Assembly: GCA_017514235.1 (NCBI GenBank)
Contig: JAFWKK010000068.1
Span: 1-50,066 of the forward strand
DNA: 50,066 nt
From: Kiritimatiellia bacterium
GTDB lineage: Bacteria > Verrucomicrobiota > Kiritimatiellia > RFP12 > UBA1067
Reading direction: 5' to 3'
Below are positions 2,132-50,048 of this stretch, one piece after another. Every line of letters starts with the position of its first letter. The first letter of the stretch is position 1. The position numbers and the translations under genes are program-made. The notes beneath the pieces are model-generated. The model had not been told where the DNA came from. It worked only from the letters and a program-made list of their open reading frames with translations, and did not search any database.

Positions 2132-2140
2132 TGGTATAAT
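2132..2140 (+). promoter_or_regulatory. extended -10 promoter, leaderless start
   Basis: TGG-TATAAT ends only 6 nt before the ATG at 2147. Transcription would start at or within a base or two of the start codon. No Shine-Dalgarno sequence and no convincing -35 box are present. Confidence 0.7.
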
Positions 2141-2146
2141 ACGCCC

Positions 2147-3097
2147 ATGAAAAAGAAAACGCTTTTATCTGCCATGTGCGCGGCGGCGCTTTGCGGCGCA
2201 GCGTACGGCGGCAGCCGACAGGACGCGACTGACTTTCGGGGGCTCTTACCGCCGGACGTCAAGACCGTCGGCATAGTCTCTGTTTCCTCATTGATTCCAA
2301 CCAACGTTTTAGTGCGTGGCACGAATCTGCTCGCCGAGGCCGGATATCGCGTGAAAGTCATGCCCAATGTCCTGAAGATGGAGCCGCCGGGAGTGCGAGC
2401 AAGGCTTTTCGAGCAGGCGTGGATGGATCAGGAGATCGACTTTCTCCTCTTTTCGCGAGGCGGACAGGGCGCATCGAACGTGATTTCGCGCATCGACTGG
2501 AATCGGCTTCGCGGACGCCGCATGCGCGTGTTGGGATTCAGCGACGTCACGTTGGTGCTTGGCGCGATGCTTTTGAAGGACGCGGGCGTTCCTATTTCCG
2601 GGCCGACGCTTTCAACCCTTGCGACCTACTGCTCCAAGGAATCGCGCGAACGCCTGCGCATGGTTCTGGACGGTACACCGCCGCCGCTTCAGCTCAAGCC
2701 CGTCAAGCATTGCGCCTCGGCAGTTGGCGGCAAGCCGGTCGTCGGCCTGCTGTCGCGACTTGTCGTGTTGTCGGACATGGGATATCTTCCTCCGTTCGAC
2801 GGTCGCATAGTATTCATAGAGTGCACGCCGAAATATGCCGCCAGCTCTGAATCGTCACTAGACAAGCTGCTGTCAAAGGGTGCGTTCGACAAGGCGGCAG
2901 CGGTGGTCTTCTGCGACTTCAACCGCAACTGGGAACAAGGCAGGATTGACGCGCTCTTCGCCCGCTTCGCAGCGAAGGTGTCATGTCCAGTGTTTTCCGG
3001 CTATCCATACGGACATGTCCCGCGGAGTTTTGCGATAGACTGCTCCCGACGGCTCGGCATCTCGGCGACGGGGACGCTGGAATGGCAGCAGCGCTAA
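2147..3097 (+). CDS. peptidase S66 (LD-carboxypeptidase / MccF-like), secreted
   Basis: A 316-residue S66-family serine peptidase. The family removes the terminal D-alanine of murein tetrapeptides (LdcA) or cleaves acyl-adenylate toxins such as microcin C (MccF). Residues 1-21 form a Sec signal peptide ending C-G-A-A-Y-G-G, so the protein acts outside the cytoplasm. Family landmarks appear in order: SRGGQGAS near residue 104; the nucleophile Ser in GFSDVT; the catalytic Glu in VFIECTP; and the catalytic His in YPYGHVP near the C terminus. The usual HGP after the nucleophile block reads SGPT. The gene follows an extended -10 by 6 nt and appears leaderless. uup starts 13 nt downstream, suggesting co-transcription. 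Export favours a murein role, but the substrate cannot be decided from sequence. Confidence 0.85.
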   Translation: MKKKTLLSAMCAAALCGAAYGGSRQDATDFRGLLPPDVKTVGIVSVSSLIPTNVLVRGTNLLAEAGYRVKVMPNVLKMEPPGVRARLFEQAWMDQEIDFLLFSRGGQGASNVISRIDWNRLRGRRMRVLGFSDVTLVLGAMLLKDAGVPISGPTLSTLATYCSKESRERLRMVLDGTPPPLQLKPVKHCASAVGGKPVVGLLSRLVVLSDMGYLPPFDGRIVFIECTPKYAASSESSLDKLLSKGAFDKAAAVVFCDFNRNWEQGRIDALFARFAAKVSCPVFSGYPYGHVPRSFAIDCSRRLGISATGTLEWQQR

Positions 3098-3110
3098 AGG
3101 GCATGGCGGA

Positions 3111-4826
3111 GTGGGTGACTTTCTGCTATCGCTGAAGGATGTGTCGCTTGCGTTCGGGGGACCGAGCGTGCTGGACGGCGTGTCGCTATCCGTCTCGAAG
3201 GGGCTTCGCGCCGCGCTCACGGGACGCAACGGCGAAGGCAAGTCCACCTTGATGAAGGTGATTGCAGGCGACCTCGAGCCCGACTCAGGGGAAATCGTCC
3301 GTGCGCCGGGGCTCAGTGTCGCCTACGTCTCGCAGGAAGTCCCGGCGGACCGTCCGGACGATCCGGCTTTCAACGCGCTTTCCGGCGGACGCCGCCGCAG
3401 GAGCATTCTCGAATCGGCCTTGCTGTCGCGTCCCGACCTCCTGCTTCTGGACGAGCCGACGAACCATCTTGACATGGAAGCCATCGACTGGCTGGAGGGG
3501 ATGCTCCGCCGGATGCGCGAGATGGCCGTGATCGTGGTCACGCACGACAGGCGGTTCCTGAGACGCGTCGCGACGAAGATATTTGACCTCGACAGAGGAG
3601 AGCTCTCCGGCTGGGAGTGCGACTACCCGACTTTTCTCAGGCGCAAGGCGGAGCTGCTGGCGGACGAAGCCGTCTACTGGGAAAAGAAGTCAAAGAAACT
3701 CGCTCAGGAGGAAGCGTGGATCAGGCGCGGAGTGAAGGCTCGGACGACGCGCAACGAGGGACGCGTCGCCGCGCTTATGAAGCTCAGGGAGGAGTTTGCG
3801 GCGCGGCGGCTTGCGGCGGGTAGCGCGACTTTGAAACTCGACACTGCTGCGCCTGGAGGGGTTTGCGTTCTCAAGGCAAAGAGCCTCTCGTTTTCATATC
3901 CCGGTTCTGACAGTCCAATCATATCCAACTTTACGGCAACCGTGCTGCGCGGCGAAAGGATAGGCATCCTCGGCTCGAACGGCGTCAGCAAGACTACGCT
4001 CCTTAACTTGCTTACGGGAAGGCTGGAGCCGACGTCAGGCGAGGTGGTGCGCGGAACGAACGTGGAGCTTTCATTCTTCGACCAGTTGCGGAGCGAGATG
4101 CGTCCAGAACTCACCGTGGGCGAGAACGTTGCGTCCGACCGCGACGAAGTTGTCGTTGGCGGAATAAGGAAGCACGTGTATTCCTACCTCTCGGACTTCC
4201 TTTTCACTCCAGAGCGCGTGCGCACCCCCGTCAAGGCGCTTTCTGGCGGCGAGCGCGCAAGGCTGATGCTCGCGAAGCTTTTTCTGAAGCCGGCGAACCT
4301 GCTCGTCATGGACGAGCCCACGAACGACCTTGACGTGGAGACTCTTGAGCTTCTGGAGGAGCAGCTTCTCGCGTATTCCGGGACGCTCCTGCTCGTCAGC
4401 CACGACCGCGATTTCCTGGACAACGTCGTGACCTCGACCTTCGCGCTGGAAGGCGACGGAACGGTAAGGCAGTTCCCGGGCGGATACGACGACTATGTTC
4501 GGCAGCGTGGTGCTATGCGGGAACGCGAAGTAGAGATTCAGGCGGGGAAGCGCGCAAAGCCTCCGGTGCTCGGCGCAGAAGCGCCTGCATCGCGCGACAG
4601 GAAGCTTTCGTACAACGAGAAGCGCGAGCTGGACGCGTTGCCCGGCAGGATTGACGCGCTGGAGAGCGAGCTTGCGGGGATTCGCGAGGCGCTTGCTGAC
4701 GGTTCAATCTACAGGTCGGATCCCGAACGCGCGAAGACGCTTGGCGGGAGGCTGCCGCTAGCCGAAGCCGAGCTTGAAGCGGCGGTGGACCGCTGGGCGG
4801 AACTGGCGGAACGCGGAGGGGAGTGA
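3111..4826 (+). CDS. uup: ABC-F ATPase, Uup-like, shortened first nucleotide-binding domain
   Basis: A 571-residue cytosolic ABC-F protein. Uup-type members act on ribosomes or branched DNA and have no membrane partner. Domain 1 has Walker A GRNGEGKST (38-46), signature LSGGRRRR (from 90) and LLLLDEPTNHLD. Domain 2 has Walker A GSNGVSKTT (288-296), LSGGERARL and LLVMDEPTNDLD. The C terminus is a predicted coiled coil beginning KLSYNEKRELDALPG, the Uup C-terminal domain. Two oddities stand out. About 60 residues normally between the Q-loop and signature of domain 1 are missing, accounting for the short length against about 635 in E. coli. In domain 2 the invariant Walker A Gly before Lys is Ser293 (AGC at 3987-3989, one base from GGC). 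The start is GTG; an ATG at 3103 is out of frame. Confidence 0.9.
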   Translation: MGDFLLSLKDVSLAFGGPSVLDGVSLSVSKGLRAALTGRNGEGKSTLMKVIAGDLEPDSGEIVRAPGLSVAYVSQEVPADRPDDPAFNALSGGRRRRSILESALLSRPDLLLLDEPTNHLDMEAIDWLEGMLRRMREMAVIVVTHDRRFLRRVATKIFDLDRGELSGWECDYPTFLRRKAELLADEAVYWEKKSKKLAQEEAWIRRGVKARTTRNEGRVAALMKLREEFAARRLAAGSATLKLDTAAPGGVCVLKAKSLSFSYPGSDSPIISNFTATVLRGERIGILGSNGVSKTTLLNLLTGRLEPTSGEVVRGTNVELSFFDQLRSEMRPELTVGENVASDRDEVVVGGIRKHVYSYLSDFLFTPERVRTPVKALSGGERARLMLAKLFLKPANLLVMDEPTNDLDVETLELLEEQLLAYSGTLLLVSHDRDFLDNVVTSTFALEGDGTVRQFPGGYDDYVRQRGAMREREVEIQAGKRAKPPVLGAEAPASRDRKLSYNEKRELDALPGRIDALESELAGIREALADGSIYRSDPERAKTLGGRLPLAEAELEAAVDRWAELAERGGE

Positions 4827-4864
4827 AGACGTAAAGAGGTGGTGTGACGCTTTTTATTTCGCCA

Positions 4865-4893
4865 TTGCGAACAGAACGCATTTTTGATACAGT
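4865..4893 (+). promoter_or_regulatory. promoter of rhaM
   Basis: TTGCGA (4865-4870), a 17-nt spacer, then TACAGT (4888-4893) preceded by TG one base away (extended -10). The start codon follows 23 nt later, after a strong AAAAGGAGG site. Confidence 0.55.
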
Positions 4894-4916
4894 ATGTGCC
4901 CAAAAGGAGGACATTG

Positions 4917-5231
4917 ATGATTCGAAAGGCGTTCCGTATGGAGCTTTGCCCCGGCATGGCGGAGGAATATCGGCGGCGGCATGAGGCGTTGTGGCCGGAG
5001 ATGCGCGATATGATTCACGCCCACGGCGGGCGGAACTACTCAATCTTCCTCGATCCTGACACAAACGTCCTCTACGGATACATCGAGCTTGAGGACGAGG
5101 CAAAGTGGGCGGCAAGCGCGGATACGGAGATTTGCCGAAAGTGGTGGGACTATATGGCTCCGCTTATGGCCGTGAACTCCGACAATTCGCCCGTCACGCA
5201 CGATCTTCAGTCGGTGTTTCACCTTGACTGA
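4917..5231 (+). CDS. rhaM: L-rhamnose mutarotase
   Basis: A 104-residue protein of the same length and pattern as E. coli RhaM, which interconverts the alpha and beta anomers of L-rhamnose ahead of isomerisation. Diagnostic stretches are MIRKAFRMEL at the N terminus, EEYRRRHEALWPE with the catalytic-type His, HGGRNYSIFLD, the RKWWDYM aromatic pair, and NSPVTHDLQSVFHLD at the end. The start at 4917 is set by AAAAGGAGG 8 nt upstream; an in-frame ATG at 4884 would add 11 unrelated residues. No rhamnose isomerase, kinase or aldolase is in the window, so the rest of the pathway must be elsewhere. Its presence beside a glycoside-hydrolase locus suggests rhamnose-containing glycans are consumed. Confidence 0.93.
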   Translation: MIRKAFRMELCPGMAEEYRRRHEALWPEMRDMIHAHGGRNYSIFLDPDTNVLYGYIELEDEAKWAASADTEICRKWWDYMAPLMAVNSDNSPVTHDLQSVFHLD

Positions 5232-5263
5232 CGCATTGACGGATACGGACAGTGGCTTTGACA

Positions 5264-5284
5264 GCCGCAGCCTTTCGCTGCGGC
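5264..5284 (+). terminator. perfect 8-bp hairpin after rhaM
   Basis: GCCGCAGC and GCTGCGGC form a perfect 8-bp stem with a CTTTC loop, 33 nt after the rhaM stop and 46 nt before the next gene. The following sequence is only mildly T-rich (ATTAGTTGAGATTTT), so it may be a weak terminator or a 5' leader structure of the OPT gene. Confidence 0.4.
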
Positions 5285-5329
5285 ATTAGTTGAGATTTTC
5301 GCGTTGGCGTCTTTGCAGGTGACGAAAAG

Positions 5330-8275: not shown

Positions 8276-8286
8276 GGGACGACGGA

Positions 8287-8322: not shown

Positions 8323-8356
8323 ATGTTTCTTTTGCCTGAAAAGCAATGTTCTGCAC

Positions 8357-8386
8357 TTGCGGGTACAACGAGGCTTTTGGTACAAT
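8357..8386 (+). promoter_or_regulatory. promoter of the beta-strand-repeat gene and operon
   Basis: TTGCGG (8357-8362), an 18-nt spacer and TACAAT (8381-8386), the latter preceded by TGG as an extended -10. The start codon follows at 8434 after an AGGAGA site. Confidence 0.55.
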
Positions 8387-8433
8387 TTGCAATGTCAGGG
8401 AGAAACAGTCTATATAAAAGGCAGGAGAAAGCA

Positions 8434-10752
8434 ATGAACAGAAAGACAAGTGCCATTCAATGCGTGTTGTTCGGTTGCGTGATGATGTTTGCGCTGCCAC
8501 TTTGTGCCAATACGTACGACGCATCAGGCGAGACCGTGCTTTCTAACATTACGGAAACGACACGCACCATCAAGACCAACGGAAGCGGCACGTTGATCCT
8601 AACTGGCACGAACTCGCTTTACGGTCTTCAGATGAGCGCGGGTACGCTCAGGATCAATGGCGGCTTGACGACTGTCACAGGCCCTGGCGGAACTTCTGGA
8701 ACGACGGCCACGTTCGCGCAGGCGGGCGGTACGACGATCATAGAGGGCGGCGCGAAATTGGCTGTGACCTCGACCAGCAGCTATTCATCTGTGAATGTTG
8801 GCGGCAACCTCATGGTGACGAACGGAACGTACGAAATTGCCGGAGAGTTCCTGAATGGCTTTTACGTATCGTCTCATGGTCGCCTGATTGTTCAGGATGA
8901 AGGTGTGTTCAACGCCGGCGTGCTGCGCATCACGCAGACGGGAACCGCATCTTTGACCGACGATGTTGGCCTTTTCCTCAATGCCGGCGGTAAGGTTTAT
9001 GTTAAAGAGTTGTATGTTGACGGCACGGGTCGCTATGGCGTAATTCGTTACGATGGCGGAACTGTCTATAAGACCAATGGTGGCGATCTCTACACCGGCA
9101 AAGCGGAAGCTTGGGATACGGTCCTGTCCTACGTCCAAGAGGGTGGGTTCCATCTGGTAAACGACACGGAAAATTCCATCAACGTTAACAGGCCGCTCTA
9201 CAGCGGCGGCGAGAATGACGGCGGTGCGCACTTCTCGTCCAGCAAGGGGCGGTGGATTTATCTGCAAGGCACGTACGACAACAGCACGTTCAACGGCGGC
9301 ACATGGCTGGAGGGTGACGTCACACTGGTCAGTTACCTCAACGATGCCAGCTTCGGAGCCGTGCCCGCATCGCCGACGAACAACATCTTCTTCAGCGGCA
9401 CCACGACGTTTTTTGGCGGCGGCTCGGACTACACCATCCACCGCAACCGCAATGTCTGGATCGATGCAGGCGCGACGGCGACATTCGGATGTAACAATTC
9501 CGGAACGGGTATGCGCATAGGCGGCGAAATCTCCGTGCCGGACGGCGAAGACGCGGCGAAAGACACCATGTTCAATGCCGGAAACGGCAATTGGGGCGGA
9601 TTTGTCGTGTTCGACCCCGGCGAAGGGCGCACAAACCGGCTCGACAGGCTTCATGTCGTGCGCAATCTCGAAATTGCGAGCGGCGTCACGATCGTGCGCA
9701 GCCCGTCCAAGGGAACGGAAACAGCCGCTCCGCTCTATGTCGAGGGTAACGGTAGCGAATACTCGGGCGGATACAACGCCTACGGAAACTTGCGGGTCAG
9801 CGGCGGCAAGCTGATCATCGAGGGCAATCGGTATTTTCAGGCGAACAAATATGCTAACGTGGTTGTCGATGGCGGCACGGTAAGCGCGCTTACGACGTAC
9901 TGCGAGTATCTCAACGGGTTGTCGGACAAACCCGCGACGCTGACTGTGGAAAAAGGCGGCGTGTTCGAGGTTTACAAGATGCGCGTCTCGCAGGGCGGTC
10001 CGGTCGGGTCGGATGTCAACATCAACACGGGCGGCGTTCTGCGCACGGCCTATTTCTACATGGACAACCATTCAACAGGCCGCATCAACCTGAACGGCGG
10101 AACGATCGCGGTCTATTCGGACAGCGCTGTCTCGACGGCAGACAAAAACACATTCCTCGGCGGCAAGAAGTCGGATGAGGTCTGGAACAATGTCACGGTC
10201 CGCGTGCTTGCCGGCGGTGCGCGGTTCGACACGGCTGGTTATTCACGCCGCGTCAACATGCCGCTTCTCTCGGCGGTGGGCGAAGGCGAGACGGACGGCG
10301 GTCTCACGAAGCTCGGCGAGGGAACGCTGACGATGACGACGACCAACACCTACAACGGCGCCACGCGTCTTGAAGGCGGCACGCTTACCTTTGCCGTTGA
10401 GAACGGGCGCCCCGACGGCGACATCGAGTTCGCGGCGGTGGCGCTGGCGGCATGCACGGATGCGTCCACCCCGCTCCTTTGGGGAATAAACATCGGATCG
10501 TTCCGTTCTGGGTGTGGCTTGCGCGTGACCGAGTGCGAGACGTTGAATGCGCAGAACTGGAAAGGGAGGTGGCACACGGTTGCACGGTTCAACACCGCAA
10601 TACCGGCGATGCCGTCAGTTACGTTCGTCAAGTCCGACGGCACGGTCGTCTCAACCGCAAACGGCTGGGATGGCTGGACGTTCCGCATCAGTGCCGACGG
10701 CCAGAATCTTGAGTTCAAGCGGGTGTACGGCACGACGGTTGTCATACGTTAA
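8434..10752 (+). CDS. secreted beta-strand-repeat (autotransporter-associated type) protein
   Basis: A 772-residue secreted protein. Residues 1-25 form a Sec signal peptide (AIQCVLFGCVMMFALPLCAN). The rest is Gly/Thr/Asn-rich short beta strands typical of parallel beta-helix passengers. Recognisable autotransporter-associated strand repeats occur near the start (GSGTLILTGTNSLYG) and near residue 620 (LTKLGEGTLTMTTTNTYNGA). No C-terminal outer-membrane barrel is seen. The protein ends YGTTVVIR, a form of the ending shared with two other secreted proteins in this window. The start is set by AGGAGA at 8424-8429. It heads an operon of phosphoesterases and glycosidases, so adhesion to or scaffolding on a glycan substrate is plausible but unproven. 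Confidence 0.8.
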   Translation: MNRKTSAIQCVLFGCVMMFALPLCANTYDASGETVLSNITETTRTIKTNGSGTLILTGTNSLYGLQMSAGTLRINGGLTTVTGPGGTSGTTATFAQAGGTTIIEGGAKLAVTSTSSYSSVNVGGNLMVTNGTYEIAGEFLNGFYVSSHGRLIVQDEGVFNAGVLRITQTGTASLTDDVGLFLNAGGKVYVKELYVDGTGRYGVIRYDGGTVYKTNGGDLYTGKAEAWDTVLSYVQEGGFHLVNDTENSINVNRPLYSGGENDGGAHFSSSKGRWIYLQGTYDNSTFNGGTWLEGDVTLVSYLNDASFGAVPASPTNNIFFSGTTTFFGGGSDYTIHRNRNVWIDAGATATFGCNNSGTGMRIGGEISVPDGEDAAKDTMFNAGNGNWGGFVVFDPGEGRTNRLDRLHVVRNLEIASGVTIVRSPSKGTETAAPLYVEGNGSEYSGGYNAYGNLRVSGGKLIIEGNRYFQANKYANVVVDGGTVSALTTYCEYLNGLSDKPATLTVEKGGVFEVYKMRVSQGGPVGSDVNINTGGVLRTAYFYMDNHSTGRINLNGGTIAVYSDSAVSTADKNTFLGGKKSDEVWNNVTVRVLAGGARFDTAGYSRRVNMPLLSAVGEGETDGGLTKLGEGTLTMTTTNTYNGATRLEGGTLTFAVENGRPDGDIEFAAVALAACTDASTPLLWGINIGSFRSGCGLRVTECETLNAQNWKGRWHTVARFNTAIPAMPSVTFVKSDGTVVSTANGWDGWTFRISADGQNLEFKRVYGTTVVIR

Positions 10753-22920: not shown

Positions 22921-23229
22921 CTAGTGCCCGGCGCGGCCCGTCGTATTCGACGGGAAGCTGACGGCGATGCCTTTCTCGTCTATCGCATAGCGGATGTTAG
23001 CCTGTGCGATCTGCATCGAGTCGTAGCGCAGGGTAAGCGTCTTGGCCTGCATGTCCCACCGGTAGGAGTCCTTCTGGATTCCGTTGTACTTGGCGAGCGC
23101 GGCGACTATCGTGACCTTGTTGCTTTCAGCAAGGCCAGGCATCGTGACGGTCATTTCGCGGATGTCTTCGCGGCGGCAACCGGAAGCTAAGGCGGCGAGG
23201 AGAAGGGCTGTGGCAACGATGCGTGTCAT
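22921..23229 (-). CDS. small lipoprotein with HMA-like fold, no CxxC
   Basis: A 102-residue protein starting MTRIVATALLLAALASGC, a lipoprotein signal with Cys18 as the lipidation site. The remaining 84 residues have the beta-alpha-beta-beta-alpha-beta rhythm of heavy-metal-associated domains (MTVTMPGLAESNKVTIVAAL, then KTLTLRYDSMQIAQANIRYA). The metal-binding CxxC is absent. It overlaps the 3' end of nifS by 4 nt, so the two are co-transcribed. Longer in-frame starts inside nifS are unlikely. Function is unknown; an envelope protein-binding role is one guess. Confidence 0.65.
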   Translation of the reverse strand: MTRIVATALLLAALASGCRREDIREMTVTMPGLAESNKVTIVAALAKYNGIQKDSYRWDMQAKTLTLRYDSMQIAQANIRYAIDEKGIAVSFPSNTTGRAGH

Positions 23230-24404
23230 GAGAATGTGGTCACGTTCTTGTCGGGGCCGAATGGGGAAAGCTCGCGGAGGGCCTCGACGACCCCAGGAAG
23301 CTTTGCGAGAACATAGTCGATGTCGTCCGCCGTGGTGTAGCGAGAAAGAGAGAAGCGCACCGAGCCGTGGACTGCAGTGAAGGGCACTCCCATGGCGCGG
23401 ATGACATGGCTCGGATCGAGTGATCCGCTGGCGCACGCGCTGCCAGTGGAGATGCATATTCCGAGGTCTGAGAGCCGGTAGGCTATCGCCTCACCCTCGA
23501 TGTATTCGAAGGAGACGTTGAGCGTGTTTGGCAGTCGGTGGGCGCGATCGCCGTTGACGCGCACGTTTCGGCAGGTCGCCAGTATGCCGGCTTCAAGGCG
23601 GTCGCGTAGCGCGGTTAGCTTGCGTTCCTCGTCGGCCATGCCGAGGCGGGCGATCTCGCAAGCCTTCGCGAGGCCGACGATGTACGGCACGTTCTCGGTG
23701 CCTGCGCGGCGGGAATGTTCCTGATGGCCGCCAAGCATGAAGGGCTTCAGCCTTGTGCCCCGCCTGACGTACAGGAACCCGATCCCCTTTGGCGCGTGGA
23801 ACTTGTGGCCTGACATCGAGAGCATGTCGACAGGCACCTTCTTCACGTCTACCGGCGTCTTGCCTGCTGCCTGGACTGCGTCGGTATGCAGCGTCGCTCC
23901 ACGTTCGCGGCAGATGGCTGCTATTTCCTTCATTGGAAAGAGGACGCCCGTCTCGTTGTTCGCCCACATCACCGAAACCAGCGCTCCCGGCGTGACAGTC
24001 TTGCGGAAAAGGTCGAGGTCGAGAAGACCGCCAGCATTCACGGGCAGTTCGACAACCTCGTGTCCGAGAGCCTTGAGTCGGCGGCAGGGCTGCAGCACGG
24101 CCGGGTGCTCAACGGCGGTCGTCACGACGCGCAACCCTTGCCCGACGGCTTCGGCGGTGCCCCTTATGGCGGCGTTGTCGGATTCTGTCGCGCATGAGGT
24201 GAAGATCACCTCGTCCGGTTCGGCGTTGATGAACCGGGCGACCTCGTCGCGGGCACGGTCCACATAACGGGCGATTTCGCCGCCAAAGGCGTGCATTGAG
24301 CTGGGATTTCCGTAGAGTTCGCCGAGAAACGGGAGCATGACGTCACGCACCTCGGGGGCGACCTTGGTGGTGGCGTTGTTGTCAAGATAGCAGATCCTCG
24401 TCAT
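23226..24404 (-). CDS. nifS: cysteine desulfurase, NifS/IscS type
   Basis: A 392-residue PLP enzyme that takes sulfur from L-cysteine for Fe-S clusters and thio-cofactors. Landmarks are YLDNNATTKVAPEV at the N terminus, TAVEHPAVLQP with the PLP-stacking His, the PLP-binding Lys in SMSGHKFHAPKG, RAGTENVPYIVGLAKA, and the catalytic Cys in ISTGSACASGS. ATG at 24404 is chosen because an upstream ATG at 24425 would overlap the -10 box. The promoter lies only 9 nt before the ATG and there is no ribosome site. No iscU or sufB partner is nearby. The window's Fe-S-rich NuoEF-like pair is a possible client. Confidence 0.93.
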   Translation of the reverse strand: MTRICYLDNNATTKVAPEVRDVMLPFLGELYGNPSSMHAFGGEIARYVDRARDEVARFINAEPDEVIFTSCATESDNAAIRGTAEAVGQGLRVVTTAVEHPAVLQPCRRLKALGHEVVELPVNAGGLLDLDLFRKTVTPGALVSVMWANNETGVLFPMKEIAAICRERGATLHTDAVQAAGKTPVDVKKVPVDMLSMSGHKFHAPKGIGFLYVRRGTRLKPFMLGGHQEHSRRAGTENVPYIVGLAKACEIARLGMADEERKLTALRDRLEAGILATCRNVRVNGDRAHRLPNTLNVSFEYIEGEAIAYRLSDLGICISTGSACASGSLDPSHVIRAMGVPFTAVHGSVRFSLSRYTTADDIDYVLAKLPGVVEALRELSPFGPDKNVTTFS

Positions 24405-24413: not shown

Positions 24414-24422
24414 ATTATAGCA
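24414..24422 (-). promoter_or_regulatory. extended -10 promoter of nifS, near-leaderless
   Basis: Minus-strand TGC-TATAAT, with the hexamer at 24414-24419 and 9 nt between it and the ATG at 24404. The -35 region would lie under the opposing dnaE promoter. Confidence 0.7.
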
Positions 24423-24429: not shown

Positions 24430-24438
24430 TGTTATAAT
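24430..24438 (+). promoter_or_regulatory. extended -10 promoter of dnaE, near-leaderless
   Basis: TGT-TATAAT with 8 nt to the ATG at 24447. It is separated by only 13 nt from the opposing nifS hexamer. No Shine-Dalgarno sequence is present. Confidence 0.72.
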
Positions 24439-24446: not shown

Positions 24447-27400
24447 ATGTCCGACTTCGTACACCTTCACCTTCACACGACGTATTCCCTGCTGGACGGG
24501 CAGTGCCAGATCAAGCCGCTTGTTGCAAAGGCAAAGGCCATGGGCATGTCGGCTCTGGCCGTAACCGACCATGGCAACCTGTTCGCCCTGAAGGCATTCT
24601 ACGACGAGTGCCGCGAGAACGGAATCAAGCCCATACTCGGCGTCGAGACGTATGTCACTTCTACTGGCGACCATACGCTGCGCCATGCGTACTTTCAGCA
24701 GCACAAGGAGGTGAAGGAGAAGCGCTTTCACCTCTGTCTGCACGCAAAGAACCTGACGGGCTACCACAATCTCGTGAAACTCATCTCCGAGGCGCACATA
24801 AACGGCTACTACTACAACCCGCGAATAGACCACGCCCTGCTGGAGAAGTACCACGAGGGCCTTCACTGCTCATCGGCCTGCATCGCCGGCGAGGTGGCAT
24901 ACTACCTTGATGACGGGTTGAAGGGCGGCAACGACCCGGCGAAAGCCGAAGAAGTGGCGCGTTGGTATCAGGGGCTCTTCGGCGAGGACTACTCGTTGGA
25001 GGTGATGATTCACCCGTCAGGAAAGGGCGAGGGCGCGGAGACTGTCCCTGGCCGCGAGCCGATTCCACCGGAGGCCATCGCCGACTTCCGCGACCTGGAG
25101 GCGCGGCAAAGGCGCGTTGCGGACCGCGTGCGCGCCCTGGGCAAGAAACTCGGAATCCGCGTGATCGCCACGAACGACGTGCATTTTCTTGAGAAGGATG
25201 ACGACGATTCCCACGACGTGCTCCTGGCCCTCTCGACGGGCAAGAAGATGTCTGACCCGGGACGCATGATCTATACTGGCCAGGAGTACTTCAAGAGCGA
25301 AGAGGAGATGCTTGCGCTCTTTCCTGATGCGCCGGAGCTTGTTGCCGCGACGAAGGAGGTGGCCGACGGCATTGAGGAATATTTGCTCAATTCCGACCCG
25401 ATCATGCCGAAATTCCCGATTCCGCCCGAGTTCGGCGACGAGGAGTCGTTCAAGGCGAAATACGACGAGAAGACGCTTGCGGGCATGTATCCGGAGGGAC
25501 GCATAGCGAAGTTCGGCGGCTACGAAAAGGCCATACGCATACAGTTTGAGGCAGAGTACCTCGCGTCGCTCGCTTGGGATGGCGCCAAGCGCCGATGGGG
25601 CGACCCGTTGCCGCCGGATACGTCCGAGCGCATGCAGTTCGAACTGGACACGATCCGCACGATGGGCTTTCCCGGTTACTTCCTGATAGTTCAGGATTAC
25701 ATAGCTGCGGCGCGGCGCATGGGCGTTTGGGTCGGGCCGGGGCGCGGTTCCGCCGCAGGTTCCGCCGTCGCGTACGCGCTCGGCATCACGAATGTGGATC
25801 CGCTCAAGTTCGACCTGCTGTTCGAAAGGTTCCTGAACCCGGACCGCATATCGATGCCCGACATTGACGTCGACTTTGACGACTCAGGGCGCCAGAAGGT
25901 GCTCGACTTCGTGACGAACAAGTACGGGCAGGAGCACGTTGCGCACATCGTGACGTTCGCCCAGCTGGCGGCAAAGTCAGTTATCAAGGACGTCGGCCGC
26001 GTGATGGACTATCCGCTCGCCGACACGAACAAGCTCGTCGCGCTCGTCCCCGGCACGCCAAAGATCACCTTCAAGAAGGCGACGAGCCCGAGAGACAAGA
26101 ACGGCGACCCCAACGGGGACTATTCGCAGGGGTTGGTGGACGCGTTCAACTCCAACGACCCGACAGTTCACCTCCTGATGGAACGCGCGAAGCACCTTGA
26201 GGGCGGCATGCGCCAGCCCGGCGTACATGCCTGCGGAGTCATCATCTCGCGCGATCCGCTCATCGAGACGCTTCCGGTGATGCCTACGGAAAACGAGACG
26301 TTGCTCACCACGCAATACGACGGACACTATGTAGAGCCGGTGGGACTGCTCAAGATGGACTTCCTCGGTCTCAAGACGCTGACGGTTGAGAAGGAGTGCG
26401 TCGCGTTGCTAGGAGCGAACAACCCGCGCGTCCCCGAGGAACTGCGGGGGCCGGACGGGATGCTCGCCCCCGACAAAATCCCAGATGACGACCGTGAGAC
26501 GTACGAGCTCTTCGGCCGCGGCGAGACGACGGGCCTCTTCCAGTTCGAGTCGGACGGCATGAAGAAGTGGCTGATGGCGCTGCAGCCCGAGCGCCTTACG
26601 GATCTCGTCGCCATGAACGCCCTCTACCGGCCCGGGCCGATGGACTACATACCGGCTTTTGTCCGGCGCAAGAAGGGCGAGGAGGCTATCGTCTACGATC
26701 ATCCGCTCATGGAGAAATACCTGGCCGACACGTATGGCGTGTGCGTGTACCAGGAGCAGGTGATGCTTCTCTCGCGGCTGCTCGGCGGCTTCACGCGCGG
26801 CGATTCGGACAAGTTGCGCAAGGCGATGGGCAAGAAGCAGGCCGCAGTCATGGAGGCCTTGAAGGTCAAGTTTGTCGAAGGCTGCCTTGCCAATCCCGCG
26901 TTCCGCATCGACAAGTGGGCGGACGAGACGGAGGCCCGCACTCTTATCGACAAGATATGGGACGACTGGCGAGCGTTTGCATCGTATGCGTTCAACAAGT
27001 CCCACGCCGTATGCTACGCCTGGATAGCATACCAGACCGGCTACTTGAAGGCGCACTATCCGGCCGAGTTCATGTGCGCCCAGATATCGTCCGAAATCGG
27101 TAACTTCGACAAGCTCCCCGGCTTTGTCGCCGAGTCGCAGGAGATGGGGCTGGAGCTGCGCCTGCCGGATGTGAACGAGTCCGGTTCGAAGTTCGTGCCC
27201 ACACCAGACGCCAAGGGCATTCGCTACGGGCTGTCGGGAATAAAGGGCGTCGGCGCGGCTGGCGAAGCGATCGTCGAGGAGAGAAAGGCGAACGGCCCCT
27301 ACAAGGGCTTCCTTGACTTCTGCATGAGGCTGGCCGGGACGCCGGCATGCAACAAGCGCGTTCTCGAGAACTTGACGCGCACCGGTGCCTTTGGTTCGCT

Positions 27401-28400
27401 CGAACCGAACCGGGCAAAGCTCTTCAATAACATCGAGTACGCCCTCAAGAAGGCGCAGCAGCGGGCGAAGGAGAAGGCGAGCGCCCAGGCGAGCTTCTTC
27501 GACCTTATGGACGGCGGAGATGAGCGCGTCTCCGACGACGAGCTATCCCCTTCGCCGCCGTTTTCGCCGGCTGAGGACCTCAAGAACGAGCGCGACTTCC
27601 TAGGTGTCTACATTTCCGGGCATCCTCTCCAGAGCTGCCGCCGCGTCATAGCCGAGGTTGCGACGTTCAAGGCGTCGCAGATGGGCGACGAGGAGGCTGT
27701 GGACGCATTGCTTAAGGCGCAGCCGGCGGACAAGTGGAAGAAGAAGTCGAATCCGCACGTGAAGGATCACCGCGCCCTGTCGCACCTTGACGTGCGGCTT
27801 GTCGGCATCCTCACTGCATGCACGGTGAAGACGCCGAAACCGCGCCCCGATGGCACGGTGGGCCAGAAGTGGGCCATACTGCAGGTCGACGACGGCGCGT
27901 TGCTGGACGCATTCTGCTTTGCAAAGACGTGGGAGACGTGCAGCGCCCTGGAGACGGCGGTGGACAAGCTCGTGTTGCTGTGCGGCGAGGTGTCCCACAG
28001 GATCAACTACGAGAAGGACGACAGGTTCGAGAAGCGCCATCCGTCCGTCGGCGACCTCAACTTCACGGTGCGTGAGGCTTATGCGCTTGAGGACGCCATG
28101 CCGATGCTTTCGAAGGGAATGAGGATACGCCTGCGTTACGAAGACCCCGACGTCAAGGCGAAGGCGGAGCGTATTCGCGACGTCATTCGCCGCAGTCCAG
28201 GCCGGCTGTCGGTCGTGCTGGAGATGGCCTGCCCCGGCGGCAAGGTGGTCGACATTGACCTCGGTTCCGGTTTGGGCGTGGCCGTAACGGTCTCTTTCCT
28301 CTCCGAACTGGGCAAGATCGTGCCGCAGTCAGACGTTTCCTTTTGCCCGTCTGACAAGGTCTATCTCGCGCCGCGGGAGCCGAAGCCCTGGGAGCAGTGA
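24447..28400 (+). CDS. dnaE: DNA polymerase III alpha subunit
   Basis: A 1317-residue replicative polymerase, somewhat longer than the 1160 residues of E. coli DnaE. An N-terminal PHP domain begins FVHLHLHTTYSLLDG and includes VTDHGNLFALK. The palm has the catalytic pair in MPDIDVDFDDSGRQ near residue 470 and the third Asp in LKMDFLGLKTLT near 634. The finger block is VYQEQVMLLSRLLGG with GDSDKLRKAMGKK. Tandem helix-hairpin-helix (RYGLSGIKGVGAAGEAIVEE) and OB-fold segments follow. The extra length lies partly in the PHP domain (about 200-230) and partly near the C terminus. This is the DnaE1 type. The gene begins 8 nt after its -10 box and is probably read from a leaderless or nearly leaderless mRNA. 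Confidence 0.97.
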   Translation: MSDFVHLHLHTTYSLLDGQCQIKPLVAKAKAMGMSALAVTDHGNLFALKAFYDECRENGIKPILGVETYVTSTGDHTLRHAYFQQHKEVKEKRFHLCLHAKNLTGYHNLVKLISEAHINGYYYNPRIDHALLEKYHEGLHCSSACIAGEVAYYLDDGLKGGNDPAKAEEVARWYQGLFGEDYSLEVMIHPSGKGEGAETVPGREPIPPEAIADFRDLEARQRRVADRVRALGKKLGIRVIATNDVHFLEKDDDDSHDVLLALSTGKKMSDPGRMIYTGQEYFKSEEEMLALFPDAPELVAATKEVADGIEEYLLNSDPIMPKFPIPPEFGDEESFKAKYDEKTLAGMYPEGRIAKFGGYEKAIRIQFEAEYLASLAWDGAKRRWGDPLPPDTSERMQFELDTIRTMGFPGYFLIVQDYIAAARRMGVWVGPGRGSAAGSAVAYALGITNVDPLKFDLLFERFLNPDRISMPDIDVDFDDSGRQKVLDFVTNKYGQEHVAHIVTFAQLAAKSVIKDVGRVMDYPLADTNKLVALVPGTPKITFKKATSPRDKNGDPNGDYSQGLVDAFNSNDPTVHLLMERAKHLEGGMRQPGVHACGVIISRDPLIETLPVMPTENETLLTTQYDGHYVEPVGLLKMDFLGLKTLTVEKECVALLGANNPRVPEELRGPDGMLAPDKIPDDDRETYELFGRGETTGLFQFESDGMKKWLMALQPERLTDLVAMNALYRPGPMDYIPAFVRRKKGEEAIVYDHPLMEKYLADTYGVCVYQEQVMLLSRLLGGFTRGDSDKLRKAMGKKQAAVMEALKVKFVEGCLANPAFRIDKWADETEARTLIDKIWDDWRAFASYAFNKSHAVCYAWIAYQTGYLKAHYPAEFMCAQISSEIGNFDKLPGFVAESQEMGLELRLPDVNESGSKFVPTPDAKGIRYGLSGIKGVGAAGEAIVEERKANGPYKGFLDFCMRLAGTPACNKRVLENLTRTGAFGSLEPNRAKLFNNIEYALKKAQQRAKEKASAQASFFDLMDGGDERVSDDELSPSPPFSPAEDLKNERDFLGVYISGHPLQSCRRVIAEVATFKASQMGDEEAVDALLKAQPADKWKKKSNPHVKDHRALSHLDVRLVGILTACTVKTPKPRPDGTVGQKWAILQVDDGALLDAFCFAKTWETCSALETAVDKLVLLCGEVSHRINYEKDDRFEKRHPSVGDLNFTVREAYALEDAMPMLSKGMRIRLRYEDPDVKAKAERIRDVIRRSPGRLSVVLEMACPGGKVVDIDLGSGLGVAVTVSFLSELGKIVPQSDVSFCPSDKVYLAPREPKPWEQ

Positions 28401-32583: not shown

Positions 32584-32612
32584 TTGTATTCCCATTTGCG
32601 ATATGGGATAAT
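32584..32612 (+). promoter_or_regulatory. promoter of the 89-residue secreted protein gene
   Basis: TTGTAT (32584-32589), 17-nt spacer, GATAAT (32607-32612), preceded by TGG as an extended -10. Confidence 0.6.
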
Positions 32613-39177: not shown

Positions 39178-39186
39178 TGGTATAAT
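39178..39186 (+). promoter_or_regulatory. extended -10 promoter of the second beta-strand-repeat gene
   Basis: TGG-TATAAT, with a weak TTTCGC -35 candidate 17 nt further up. The likely GTG start is 83 nt downstream with a good ribosome site. Confidence 0.65.
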
Positions 39187-39268
39187 TTGCGGCGTGAAAT
39201 GAAGACGTACTCCCATAGTGTCGCATGGAACGCGCGTAGAATGCGCGTTGAACAAGGGGACAAAGGCT

Positions 39269-41719
39269 GTGAAGAAACCATTGATAATGACATGTGCGGC
39301 AGTTGCCGTTGCACTTGCCGCCACCGCTCTTGATGAACCGATCTACACGGTTACGACCTCTGGCACGGGCACGAACGACATATCCGCCGCCACAATCGAG
39401 GTGACGGCGAACGGCGAGACTACCACAAAGTCTTTCTCTGAGATCTCGTTCACGACGGGCACCATCCGCAAGCGCGGCACCGGTTTTTTGCGCTCGGCGG
39501 CAAGTCTCGTGAGCTTCACGGGCACGATTCTGGTGGAGGAGGGTGCATGGCTCGCCACGGCGAACGGACACTTGGGATATTCGGTGCATCCTTATACGGA
39601 CAGCGCGAACGTCGTGATTTCCAACGGCGCGTCGGTGGTGTACGCGATACCGTCCGGCTCGGCGCAGTTCCGTCAGGCAGTCACTTTCGGCGGCACGGGG
39701 TACAATGGCATGGGCGCGATCTGCATCGAAAACAAGGTACCAGACCTTATCCAGTTCTTCTGGAACACGCACTGGACTATGTCGGACGATGCAACGATCG
39801 CCGTCCATAACACAGCCTCTTCAATCACCGCCGGCTATCTAACTTTTCATATGGAAGGGCACACGTTGACATTTCAGGGCTACGGCAGCGGAACGGGCAG
39901 CACATTCACTTTTCAGTACCCGACCATCAGCAATCCAGGGAACATCGTATTGGATGGGACACGCTGGGCGTTCAATATCGACTCTGTCGGGAGTTCCGGG
40001 CGCGTCGTTCGCGAGTTGTCCGGAACGGCGGCGAACACGATTGAACTGAAGAAAGGAACGAGAGTGGCGAACGAAGCTTGGTTCCACATGGTCAACATGA
40101 ATCCGACCTCGCCCTGGAAGGTTATTTCCCACGATGGAGGAGTTATGCGCGCTACGCATGGTCAATGGGGGTCCACAAACCTTGCGGCATGGGCGGGACC
40201 GGTGGAACTTGCGGATGGCATGTTGGCCGTCAGCGGCAATCACGGTAATTCATTTTCGTACTACAATACGATCTCCGGTGCGGGCGGACTTTCCTGTTCA
40301 CGTGGTCAGCAGGTTGTCCTTGCGAACGGCGGCAACTCCTTCACGGGCGAGGTGCGCATCAACACAAGCCGTGCGGATGGCGAGGGCGAATTGCGCCTTT
40401 TTGCGGACGGCGCCCTGCCGGCGAATGGTGCCGGCGCAAAGCTCTACGACAGTTCGCTGGAATTGGCTGGATATCGTGGCACCTACCATCTTCCGTCGCT
40501 TGTCTTTGATGTCAAGACAGGTCTCACGGAGACTTTCAGGGGCGGCACGAACGGCGTGGTGAAGTCGCTGAGGAAGATTGGCGTCGGCACATTGGATGTC
40601 AGTGCGCCGGTGACGGTTACTGGCGTCACCGAGATTGCCGCAGGAACGTTGCGCGTTCCCTACGCCCATGCCGGACTCATCGCGGGCGGCATGGCGTCAG
40701 TATCGCCTAACTACCCATCCGATCAGCTTAAATTGATCGATACGCTCGTGCTGACAAACCGTGTTGCGCTTGGTGCCGATCTCGCCTACACGGACGAAGA
40801 GGGGTATTGGCTTCGCGATCAGGTGACATGGGGCGGACGTGCGCTTTTCACCTATCACGGCTACCTGTGGAACCGGTCGGGCGTAACGCAGGACTGGACG
40901 TTTGCGTTGAACATTTCTCAGGGAGCAAATCTTTATCTGAATGGCTCGGCTGTTGCCAATCTCTATGCGACTGATTACCGTGCCAATGGGTTCGTAAAGT
41001 TCAAGACGATCCCGGTGCCGCCTGGCGCAAACCGTTTTGATCTGCGCATCTACACGACAGTCGCATACGGTCCTTCCTTTGACTGGAGCGAATATCGCAG
41101 AGGCTATACCTACAAGAAGAACTCGAAGGATGGTGAAAAGCTGGCGTGGAAACCAAATTTCGGCTTTGCCATCGACACGCAGGGGCGTGAAAGCACGAAT
41201 GCCGTGGACTATGTGTCGGCAGTTGATCCGGGCGACGGTTCGCTTCTGACGGTCTCGGTTGACGGGCTGGATGACGGCGTTGCGGCGGTTTTGCCGAAGT
41301 TCGACCACCTGAAGTTCACGGGCGGTGCGCTCGACACGCGCGGCAGCGACGTCACGGTGCCGGTTCTGGAGGGCGTGAACGGCGCGGTCACCAACTCCAA
41401 CGCCTATTATCCGGGCGGCTCCCTGACTGTAGGCGAGAAGTGGATTGTTTCTGGCGCTGCCACTGCAAACAAGACGCTGAAGGTGACGGGCAGGCTGAAG
41501 TTCGCCGATGGCGCAACGCTTGACTGCACCGATCTCTCGCATCTCTCCCGCAAGACGGCGCACACGCTTGCCACGGCGACGGGCGGCATTGACGGCATGC
41601 CCGCGTTCGACGACAACGCGCCCGGCAACAAGGGCTGGCATCTCGTCAAGGAGACCGTCGGCGGCGTGGAGTCGCTGAAGTTCTTCTGGCGGCTCGGCAT
41701 GACGATTACAATCCATTGA
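39269..41719 (+). CDS. secreted beta-strand-repeat protein with PA14-like domain
   Basis: An 816-residue secreted protein. GTG at 39269 opens a signal peptide (KKPLIMTCAAVAVALAATA) and follows AAGGGG by about 10 nt; the ATG at 39218 would add 17 residues with no signal. Most of the protein is short Gly/Thr/Asn-rich beta strands, with strand repeats such as LRKIGVGTLDVSAPVTVTGV near residue 435. Residues about 500-620 resemble a PA14-type carbohydrate-binding domain (YLWNRSGVTQDWTFALNIS, ANLYLNGSAVANLY, VPPGANRFDLRIYTT). It ends GMTITIH. No membrane barrel. Like the protein at 8434 it is a probable surface adhesin or scaffold for the neighbouring enzymes. It stops 11 nt before the next glycosidase gene. 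Confidence 0.8.
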   Translation: MKKPLIMTCAAVAVALAATALDEPIYTVTTSGTGTNDISAATIEVTANGETTTKSFSEISFTTGTIRKRGTGFLRSAASLVSFTGTILVEEGAWLATANGHLGYSVHPYTDSANVVISNGASVVYAIPSGSAQFRQAVTFGGTGYNGMGAICIENKVPDLIQFFWNTHWTMSDDATIAVHNTASSITAGYLTFHMEGHTLTFQGYGSGTGSTFTFQYPTISNPGNIVLDGTRWAFNIDSVGSSGRVVRELSGTAANTIELKKGTRVANEAWFHMVNMNPTSPWKVISHDGGVMRATHGQWGSTNLAAWAGPVELADGMLAVSGNHGNSFSYYNTISGAGGLSCSRGQQVVLANGGNSFTGEVRINTSRADGEGELRLFADGALPANGAGAKLYDSSLELAGYRGTYHLPSLVFDVKTGLTETFRGGTNGVVKSLRKIGVGTLDVSAPVTVTGVTEIAAGTLRVPYAHAGLIAGGMASVSPNYPSDQLKLIDTLVLTNRVALGADLAYTDEEGYWLRDQVTWGGRALFTYHGYLWNRSGVTQDWTFALNISQGANLYLNGSAVANLYATDYRANGFVKFKTIPVPPGANRFDLRIYTTVAYGPSFDWSEYRRGYTYKKNSKDGEKLAWKPNFGFAIDTQGRESTNAVDYVSAVDPGDGSLLTVSVDGLDDGVAAVLPKFDHLKFTGGALDTRGSDVTVPVLEGVNGAVTNSNAYYPGGSLTVGEKWIVSGAATANKTLKVTGRLKFADGATLDCTDLSHLSRKTAHTLATATGGIDGMPAFDDNAPGNKGWHLVKETVGGVESLKFFWRLGMTITIH
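41633..41677 (+). repeat. 45-nt direct repeat, left copy (in frame)
   Basis: This segment encodes GWHLVKETVGGVESL near the C terminus of the beta-strand-repeat protein. A copy identical at 39 of 45 positions by hand alignment lies at 44436-44480. Confidence 0.8.
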
Positions 41720-44532: not shown

Positions 44533-44541
44533 TGGTATAAT
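44533..44541 (+). promoter_or_regulatory. extended -10 promoter of the GH39-like gene
   Basis: TGG-TATAAT, 31 nt before the ATG at 44573. No clear -35 box. Confidence 0.65.
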
Positions 44542-46219: not shown

Positions 46220-46248
46220 TTGCAGCGAGGGAACCGCTGTGTTATAAT
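46220..46248 (+). promoter_or_regulatory. promoter of der, near-leaderless
   Basis: TTGCAG (46220-46225), 17-nt spacer, TATAAT (46243-46248), with TGT as an extended -10. Only 8 nt separate the hexamer from the ATG at 46257. Confidence 0.78.
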
Positions 46249-46256
46249 ACGCGGCG

Positions 46257-47627
46257 ATGAACGTGGTTTCGCTAGTCGGGCGCCCGAACACGGGCAAGAG
46301 CGCGCTTTTCAACCGCCTCGTGCGCAAGCGCGTGGCGATCGTCTTTGACCAGCCGGGCGTCACGCGCGACCGCGTCACGCGCGAGGTGGAGCTGGGCGGA
46401 AGGCGCCTGATGCTCGTGGACACCGGCGGCATAGCCTTCGACCGGCGCGTTACGGGCGACCCGCTTGACGAGGAGACCCGAAGCCAGGCCGCTCTGGCAG
46501 TCGAGGACTCCGCCGTATGCGTGGTCGTCGTCGACGCTCGCGCCGGCGTGACGCCGCTAGACGCGGAGGTCATCGCAAGGGTGAGGGCTTCGGGAGTGCC
46601 GTGCCTCATCGCGGCAAACAAGTGCGACACGCCGGATGACGACGTGCGCACCTCGGAGTTCGCGGACTTCGGGCTTCCCGTGTTTGCCGTTTCCGCCGAG
46701 CACGGGAGAGGCGTCGAGGAACTTGTCAGGCAGGTCGTTTCGCGCCTGCCGCCTGAGGAGGCGGACGAGTCGGCGGCGCGGCCTCTCCGCGTGGCGGTCG
46801 TCGGGCGGCCGAACGTCGGCAAGTCGTCATACGTCAACCGGCTGCTCAACGCGCCGCGCGTCATCGTCAGCGAAATCGCCGGCACCACGCGCGACGCGGT
46901 CGAGGTCCCGTTCACGATCGGCACCGGGCCGGAGGCGCGGCACTACATGCTCGTCGACACGGCCGGCATGAAGCCGCACACGAAGATGTCGAAGACTTCA
47001 GTGGACAACTTCTCCCTCTTCCGCAGCGAGCAGGCGATAGAGGAGGCTGATGTCGTGCTGCTTCTCATAGACGCGAAGATGGGGCCGACCATGCAGGACA
47101 AGCGGATAGCAGGCAAGATCCTCGCGGCGAACCGCGCTTGCGTAGTCCTCTGCCAGAAGTGGGATCTCGCGCAGGCCGACGGCATAACGGAGACGAAGGC
47201 CCTGCCGGCGTTGCGCCAGATGATGCCGTTCCTGAACTTCGCCCCGGTGGTGTTCTGCTCCAACACGTCCGGCTACAACATACGCCGCACCGTCGACGCC
47301 ATAGACCGCGCGGCGGCCAGCGCGTCGGAGCATCTGCCGACCGGAATGCTGAACCGCGTCATCGAGACGGCGACGAAGAAGACTCTCGCGCCGATGATAC
47401 GCGGCAGGCGGCTGAAGGTCTACTACGGGCTTCAGGTGTCGACGAACCCGCAGACTATCTGCCTGTTCGTGAACGACCCCAAGCTCGTGACGCCTGCCTA
47501 CCTCTCGTTCATCGAGAAGAACATCCGCGCACGGTTCGGCCTTGAGGGTGCGCCGTTGCGCATCTTCCTCAAGGCGCGCCCAAGGAAGGGCCTTCAGGCG
47601 GAAGGCAAGCCTGCTATCCCACGGTAA
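46257..47627 (+). CDS. der: ribosome-assembly GTPase Der (EngA)
   Basis: A 456-residue tandem GTPase needed for 50S subunit maturation. GTPase 1 has GRPNTGKS (8-15), DTGG and ANKCD. GTPase 2 has GRPNVGKS (about 183-190), DTAG, and QKWD (about 300) where the NKxD guanine-specificity motif is expected, so Asn is replaced by Gln. The C-terminal KH-like domain is complete (RRLKVYYGLQVSTNPQTICL, FIEKNIRARFGLEGAPLRIF). ATG 46257 lies 8 nt after the -10 box and there is no ribosome site. Its 3' end overlaps the opposing NuoF-like gene by 14 nt. Confidence 0.96.
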   Translation: MNVVSLVGRPNTGKSALFNRLVRKRVAIVFDQPGVTRDRVTREVELGGRRLMLVDTGGIAFDRRVTGDPLDEETRSQAALAVEDSAVCVVVVDARAGVTPLDAEVIARVRASGVPCLIAANKCDTPDDDVRTSEFADFGLPVFAVSAEHGRGVEELVRQVVSRLPPEEADESAARPLRVAVVGRPNVGKSSYVNRLLNAPRVIVSEIAGTTRDAVEVPFTIGTGPEARHYMLVDTAGMKPHTKMSKTSVDNFSLFRSEQAIEEADVVLLLIDAKMGPTMQDKRIAGKILAANRACVVLCQKWDLAQADGITETKALPALRQMMPFLNFAPVVFCSNTSGYNIRRTVDAIDRAAASASEHLPTGMLNRVIETATKKTLAPMIRGRRLKVYYGLQVSTNPQTICLFVNDPKLVTPAYLSFIEKNIRARFGLEGAPLRIFLKARPRKGLQAEGKPAIPR

Positions 47628-49365: not shown

Positions 49366-49853
49366 GACGCTTTCCCTTCCGCCGCAATCCTGCGGACGAT
49401 TTCCCTGGCCTTCTGCGGCGTAAGCGAGCCGTAGGCCGTTTCGTTGATCATCATGACCGGCGAGAGCGAGCAGCAGCCGAGGCACGCCACCTCTTTCAGC
49501 GAGAAGAGCCCGTCAGCGGTCGTTCCGCCGTCCTCGATGCCCAGTTCGTCCTTGAGCGCGGCGGCGATCGAGTCGGCGCCGTTCACGTGGCACGCCGTGC
49601 CCTTGCACAGCAGTATGAGGTTCTTGCCGACCGGCTTGAGCCTGAATTGCGAATAGAACGTGGCCACGCCCATCGCCTTCGCAGGGGAGACGCCCTGGCG
49701 CTCCGCAATGCGGTAGATGACGTCGGCGGGCAGGTAGCCGTATATCTCCTGCGCCCGCTGCAGTATCGTAACGAGAGCATGCCTGTCGCCCTCGAACTCC
49801 CTGAATACGGGTTCGAGCTTCGACAGGTCGCTCGCGGCACAGTCTTTGCACAT
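49362..49853 (-). CDS. NuoE/HydC-like [2Fe-2S] subunit
   Basis: A 163-residue thioredoxin-like [2Fe-2S] protein of the NuoE family, partner of the adjacent NuoF-like subunit. The pattern is LQRAQEIYGYLPADVIYRIA, GVATFYSQFRLKPVGKN, then the four cluster cysteines in CKGTACHVNG (first two) and VACLGCCSLSPVMMIN (last two). MCKDCAASD at the N terminus adds two more cysteines not usual for the family. ATG 49853 is chosen for a strong GGAAGGAGG site 8 nt upstream. Its promoter is at 49897-49905. Confidence 0.92.
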   Translation of the reverse strand: MCKDCAASDLSKLEPVFREFEGDRHALVTILQRAQEIYGYLPADVIYRIAERQGVSPAKAMGVATFYSQFRLKPVGKNLILLCKGTACHVNGADSIAAALKDELGIEDGGTTADGLFSLKEVACLGCCSLSPVMMINETAYGSLTPQKAREIVRRIAAEGKAS

Positions 49854-49896
49854 CGTCGTAACCTCCTTCCGCACCATGCGGAAAACATATCATCAT

Positions 49897-49905
49897 ATTA
49901 TACCA
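49897..49905 (-). promoter_or_regulatory. extended -10 promoter of the NuoE-NuoF-like operon
   Basis: Minus-strand TGG-TATAAT, 43 nt before the ATG at 49853, with a proper ribosome site between. Confidence 0.65.
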
Positions 49906-50039
49906 TAATCCGCGCGGCTGGCGCACGCTGGAATATCCCCAGTTTTTGATGTCTGAAACGAGTCGGATGCCTGATTCCATTGGGCGGGATGCGTTTTCGG
50001 AAGTGAAATAAGCGAAAAGTCGGTTCCACTTGTTGGGTG

Positions 50040-50048
50040 TGGTATAAT
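50040..50048 (+). promoter_or_regulatory. extended -10 promoter at the window edge
   Basis: TGG-TATAAT, followed 5 nt later by a GTG at 50054 (GTG CCA AAA ACC). A leaderless gene may start there and continue past the window end, but only four codons are visible. Confidence 0.55.

Follow-up and report, generated by a model that had tools for sequence, protein, structure and literature searches.

In the extended -10 (TRTGN) sigma70 promoters of Escherichia coli and Bacillus, a TG lies one base before the -10 hexamer and a T lies two bases before that TG. Here we describe an element of this kind, TGNTATAAT, in a 50,066-nucleotide stretch of the genome of a Kiritimatiellia bacterium (contig JAFWKK010000068.1 of assembly GCA_017514235.1; the whole stretch is referred to as the window). 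The element stands so near to the start codons of many genes that their mRNAs are probably made without a leader. A single type of extended -10 promoter seems to serve both leaderless genes and genes led by a Shine-Dalgarno (SD) sequence.

Bacterial leaderless genes with a -10 element about 10 nucleotides (nt) from the start codon are established (PMC3160421, PMC12340547, PMC9581028). In high-GC groups the hexamer is a degenerate TAnnnT, and a peak for TG is reported from several genomes of low GC, for example that of Lactococcus (Zheng 2011, PMC3160421). In Deinococcus-Thermus, expression falls when the motif is mutated and is also disturbed when the motif lies too close to the start codon (PMC12340547). 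Mapping of transcription start sites in Akkermansia muciniphila by Cappable-seq placed 10% of them at annotated gene starts, i.e. leaderless, and the same paper describes a pyrimidine-purine (YR) motif at positions -1/+1 as a universal feature of start sites in bacteria (PMC4782308).

The motif and its distance to the start codon

An earlier note on the window had reported eight exact TGNTATAAT sites and judged that fewer than one would be expected by chance. We found all eight, in the same positions and on the same strands, against a mean of 0.23 (maximum 2) in dinucleotide shuffles of the window. The whole genome (G000; 3.96 megabases, Mb, in 82 contigs) contains 545 copies of the motif and 11 of the reversed pattern. 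Further counts come from a 1.05-Mb sample made up of the window and other stretches of the same genome (G+C 0.61; 709 genes called). The sample holds 165 motif sites, about 30% of those in the genome, one of them counted twice where the end of the window overlaps another contig (C17). Although intergenic DNA makes up 18% of the bases, 160 of the 165 sites are intergenic. TGN precedes 165 of the 231 copies of TATAAT (71%, against 5.8% expected), and a T stands two bases ahead of the TG in 85% of sites, giving TNTGNTATAAT.

This strictness is also seen when all in-frame candidate starts are surveyed for TANNNT hexamers 5-10 nt upstream, without selection on the motif. TATAAT was found 71 times at this distance against 18 expected, and 64 of the 71 copies carry the TG. 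The runner-up, TAATAT, was found 12 times (5.7 expected) and overlaps TATAATAT; TATACT was found six times (5.2 expected), and the TANNNT hexamers other than TATAAT and TATACT, pooled, showed no excess (140 against 157 expected).

The earlier note proposed that distances to start codons be counted genome-wide; in the 1.05-Mb sample the enrichment is sharply positional. ATG triplets in any frame number 13, 31, 15, 10 and 9 at distances of 6 to 10 nt from the hexamer (78 in total, with a peak at 7), then fall to a background level of 2, 5, 1, 4, 1 and 2 at 11 to 16 nt (15 in total), before a broad rise from about 17 nt. A further 16 ATGs directly follow the hexamer (distance 0); as these are too close to serve as starts, we read them as a base preference after the hexamer. 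Among the 78 ATGs at 6-10 nt, 55 share the frame of a called gene, compared with four of the 15 at 11-16 nt.

Of the 165 sites, 66 were assigned to a leaderless type (56 ATG, nine GTG and one TTG start), 51 were leadered, and 48 had no assigned start within 60 nt; the exact motif thus stands in the leaderless arrangement at 66 of the 709 called genes. When the choice of start favours an SD, 34 of the 51 leadered genes have one (33% in shuffled leaders), and 23 of the 51 do so without that preference and under a narrower definition of the SD. The shortest motif-to-start distance among SD-bearing leadered genes is 19 nt. Two initiation modes therefore coexist, as had been suggested. The motif is not, however, a local rule of leaderless transcription, because SD-led genes and transfer RNA (tRNA) genes carry it as well. 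The proposed division between leaderless housekeeping genes and SD-led secreted ones fails as well: by a crude hydrophobicity rule, N-termini resembling signal peptides are encoded by 23 of the 66 leaderless-type and 19 of the 51 leadered genes (P = 0.85), and by 148 of the 592 other genes, and the product of a leaderless-type gene in the window, a peptidase of family S66, itself begins with such a sequence (by eye).

The base before the start codon fits the earlier proposal that transcription begins at the start codon. A pyrimidine occupies position -1 in 50 of the 66 leaderless-type genes, compared with 121 of 287 SD-led genes (P = 1e-6), and in all 11 genes in which the distance is 6 nt. 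Taken with the YR initiator rule, this favours the A of the ATG as the first transcribed base.

All five tRNA genes found in the sample have TGNTATA(A/C)T 12-21 nt ahead of the mature 5' end (0.013 expected for each), and because these genes carry it the motif is a promoter and not a ribosome site. The genome encodes, on contig C9, an RpoD that scores over the TIGR02393 cut-off and whose residues align one by one with two SigA chains of known structure, as expected of an ordinary housekeeping sigma factor with canonical DNA-binding regions. The anti-SD is intact in the 16S rRNA tail (GGATCACCTCCTTTCT) of the four relatives in which that tail was read; the 16S gene of this genome was not found in its own assembly.

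We hold with considerable confidence that TGNTATAAT is the extended -10 element of the main vegetative promoter, and that a start codon 6-10 nt on gives a leaderless mRNA, while from about 17 nt onwards the mRNA carries a short leader in which an SD is often present. The promoter would be read by the ordinary RpoD sigma factor, with little contribution from a -35 element. At distances of 6-10 nt RNA polymerase would begin at the start codon or no more than about 4 nt from it, and 70S ribosomes, or ribosomes loaded with initiator tRNA, would have to initiate on the resulting leaderless mRNA with no help from SD pairing. A start codon from about 17 nt downstream onwards would leave the transcript with a short leader, often including an SD able to pair with the intact anti-SD. 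Starts at 11-16 nt are avoided, perhaps because they would be too far for a 5'-terminal AUG and too near for an SD.

Conservation, spread and alternative explanations

We followed three leaderless-type genes of the window, nifS, dnaE and der, in related genomes. Among 16 same-genus orthologs of nifS, 14 have TGNTATA(A/C)T 8-12 nt from the ATG; the two exceptions are an ortholog with TGGTAAAAT at a distance of 20 nt and another that lacks the motif. In an alignment of 13 of the 14 loci (L305 is absent; the near-identical L304 is excluded from the means), mean pairwise identity is at chance level, 0.24-0.27, from 60 to 5 bases ahead of the motif, and reaches 0.51 over the final five bases; the identity of 0.92 within the motif arises by construction, as the rows were anchored on it. 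The leaderless type of dnaE is found in six of 12 same-genus genomes and, in a second family of the order, in all three genomes (loci L007 and L008 are complete). In der, the leaderless arrangement is retained in just three of 16 same-genus orthologs (8 nt in G000, G118 and G239). The spacing is 14 nt in G121 and 20-25 nt in G116, G115, G124 and G122, the first three of these four having SD-like leaders, and the other eight orthologs have no motif.

We compared counts of the motif with those of the reversed pattern in 115 genomes of the phylum. Within the same family as our genome, enrichment is strong in G084, with 281 sites against 15, but G101 has only 19 against 10. Six genomes of the second family are also strongly enriched (59-113 against 1-8), and two further members of the order have few (10 against 4 in G098; 8 against 2 in G107). 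Most other genomes of the class are close to 1:1 (by eye); outside the class, enrichment is moderate in some (106 against 22 in G025, 106 against 24 in G089 and 141 against 48 in G009). In a second survey, of 146 genomes of the class, we counted TATANT at 6-9 nt and at 12-15 nt before ATG. Our genome gave 347 and 138, and the ratio is at least 1.7 in 13 of the 17 members of the order, the others being G101, G130, G217 and G236. Most of the other 129 genomes lie near 1 (by eye), with exceptions including G053 (29/9), G214 (36/11) and G020 (27/10), the last of which belongs to another family of the class and yielded one motif match in 56 kilobases of sequence.

The requirement for TG was examined in four genomes of the order (G000, G084, G026 and G107). 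In none of the four is TANNNT in excess 6-9 nt ahead of ATG when the TG is missing. With TG it is found there 118, 14, 15 and 11 times, respectively, against means of about 57, 9, 6 and 1 in other windows of distance. For G026 (68% GC) gene calls look unreliable and only motif-centred counts were used; in G107 (68% GC) the hexamer is looser, often TAGAAT or TAGACT, and the TG is retained. We lean towards a broader reading: that in this order of Kiritimatiellae leaderless initiation needs an obligate extended -10 element, near-invariant TGNTATAAT in our genome's own genus, despite 61-68% GC; that leaders fall into two length classes with a forbidden gap between them; and that genes flip between leaderless and SD-led initiation within a genus simply by gain or loss of 12-17 nt between an unchanged -10 element and the start codon.

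Other explanations can be weighed against the same data. The TATAAT-like element might be an AT-rich translation signal, a non-SD ribosome site as proposed for Bacteroidetes, and not a promoter at all. It does lie near the starts of genes that lack an SD, and Akkermansia, in the wider phylum, is listed as SD-scarce in an earlier survey (PMC10783764). However, a translation signal sits poorly with the need for TG, the nearly always exact TATAAT and the fixed spacing, with a base ahead of the ATG that resembles a transcription initiator, and with the presence of the element upstream of every sampled tRNA gene and of SD-led genes at distances of at least 19 nt; we regard it as very improbable. 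Barely less improbable is that the hexamers are promoters whose true starts lie downstream, behind ordinary leaders, with the spacing to the nearer ATG due to chance. Our start codons are computed, and the window sites at 44533 and 49897 show that downstream starts can occur, but chance spacing would not be expected to make ATGs, counted in any frame, peak at 7 nt and drop into a valley at 11-16 nt, nor to put so much higher a share of in-frame ATGs before the valley than within it, nor to preserve the arrangement in orthologs of nifS and dnaE despite the divergence of their upstream DNA. We rejected the idea that the local cluster reflects chance or AT-rich composition: with eight sites where shuffles give 0.23, 545 against 11 reversed in the genome, and a G+C of 0.61 in the sample, its probability is negligible.

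Several observations nonetheless weigh against reading TGNTATAAT as the vegetative promoter of leaderless and leadered genes alike, or against its reach. Start codons were called by a simple codon-usage gene caller and not by proteomics. The lack of an SD at all 65 leaderless-type starts examined is partly forced, because the -10 element sits where an SD would be, and one of the 66 genes has an SD-like tetramer between hexamer and start. The remaining -35 signal is weak: TTGACA with two or fewer mismatches precedes 26% of leaderless (control 18%) and 35% of leadered genes (control 16%). Besides the low retention in der, dnaE is of the leaderless type in six of 12 same-genus genomes, a partial retention, and in none of three genomes of a third family, and the motif is found within 60 nt of none of 11 nifS genes from other families of the order. 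In G084 the excess at 6-9 nt is weak, and the 26-29 nt window is higher (19). Of 17 tRNAs from five other genomes of the class, just five have TGNTANNNT within 60 nt. None of 27 RNase P RNA loci has TGNTATAAT within 60 nt upstream (one has the looser TGNTANNNT), but the gene seems to follow another closely, so that these loci say little about the motif. In the open-access literature we found no transcription start sites or 5'-end data for Kiritimatiellae.

As regards other RNA genes, RNase P RNA seems by eye to lie close behind a short zinc-ribbon-like frame in many of the 27 loci (L213-L239), which suggests that the two are cotranscribed. The small bacterial signal recognition particle (SRP) RNA family RF00169 had no match in any of 30 genomes of the order, compared with matches in 11 of 14 control genomes; SRP RNA in this order may take another form, be divergent, or be absent.

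Sites and genes in the window

The eight exact window sites were sorted into four of leaderless type, three leadered and one unclear. In the first group, as the earlier note had recognized, hexamers end 6, 9, 8 and 8 nt before the starts of the S66 peptidase gene, nifS, dnaE and der, respectively, and no SD is present at any of these starts. On the plus strand, TGGTATAAT at 2132..2140 precedes the ATG at 2147 of an LD-carboxypeptidase S66 family gene (2147..3097; Pfam PF02016/PF17676). The nifS gene, encoding a cysteine desulfurase, lies on the minus strand at 23226..24404 (TIGR03402 above cut-off in a scan from 24425), with TGCTATAAT at 24414..24422 ahead of its start at 24404. The gene for DNA polymerase III alpha, dnaE, lies on the plus strand at 24447..28400 (NF004226/TIGR00594 above cut-off), behind TGTTATAAT at 24430..24438. 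The same form, TGTTATAAT, at 46240..46248 on the plus strand precedes the ATG of der (46257..47627; ribosome biogenesis GTPase, TIGR03594), which is leaderless in type here and SD-led in some same-genus relatives.

The nifS and dnaE genes point away from each other across a gap of 42 base pairs. Within it their extended -10 elements stand back to back, separated by 7 base pairs, an arrangement in which the two polymerases should exclude each other. A second gene for a DnaE-like polymerase is present elsewhere in the genome (contig C31, 10700-13060), its product sharing 63% identity with the window DnaE over the best segment.

The other four sites all read TGGTATAAT. At 39178..39186 (plus strand) the motif lies 31 nt ahead of a GTG at 39218, an uncertain start with no SD seen, and at 44533..44541 (plus strand) it is followed by a short leader, with candidate starts 22, 31 or 34 nt on. 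On the minus strand, the site at 49897..49905 most likely leads an SD-led gene, as GGAAGGAGG lies ahead of an ATG 43 nt downstream (49853; an alternative ATG is at 49877). At the window edge, 50040..50048 on the plus strand, the earlier note had suggested a possible leaderless gene. The last 127 bases of the window (49940-50066) are identical to part of contig C17, apparently an assembly overlap that reveals the next gene. On C17 a leader of 34 nt, containing an SD-like AAGAGGAA, separates the motif from an ATG, while the frame from the GTG 5 nt from the hexamer reaches a stop after 15 codons (both by eye); the edge gene is therefore leadered.

Among three variant sites listed with the exact ones, those at 4885 and 8378 read TGATACAGT and TGGTACAAT, respectively, and that at 32604 reads TGG-GATAAT, which does not fit a TANNNT hexamer. 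SD-bearing leaders lie downstream of all three (by eye). Elsewhere in our analysis of the window, the stretches 8323-10752 and 39218-41719 were seen to encode large proteins that carry repeats of the autotransporter-passenger or beta-strand kind (PF12951, TIGR02601), and several genes in these runs had no match in the one library scanned.

Comparison with known systems

The TG and the T ahead of it occupy the same positions here as in the extended -10 promoters of E. coli and Bacillus; the difference is that here 165 of 231 TATAAT copies carry TGN. Leaderless bacterial genes are already known; what we describe is an unusually strict form of them. The exact motif allows a nearly noise-free prediction of promoters and transcription starts at 61% GC and could correct gene starts misplaced by callers, and the availability of close relatives lets the change of initiation mode of the same gene be followed. 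An uncultured gut lineage also joins the bacteria with many leaderless genes. Among the matches listed in a search of the open-access literature we found no paper on leaderless genes in Kiritimatiellae; one paper names the group in a table of anti-SD types (PMC10783764).

Akkermansia muciniphila shares with our genome the wider Verrucomicrobiota, leaderless transcripts and the YR initiator, and differs in class (PMC4782308). The -10 elements adjoining ORFs (open reading frames) in Deinococcus-Thermus have the same architecture as those described here (PMC12340547). They concern about 30% of ORFs in a different phylum; in our genome, where TG is required, the exact motif is so placed at 66 of the 709 called genes. 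The word 'extended' is absent from the main text of that paper. The TA-led genes of Actinobacteria and Deinococcus-Thermus likewise have their -10 element roughly 10-12 nt ahead of the start and occur alongside SD-led genes (PMC3160421), whereas our 61% GC genome has a nearly exact TATAAT and an obligatory TG. A strict TGNTATAAT in such a genome thus runs counter to the published trend, in which high GC goes with TAnnnT and the TG peak with low GC.

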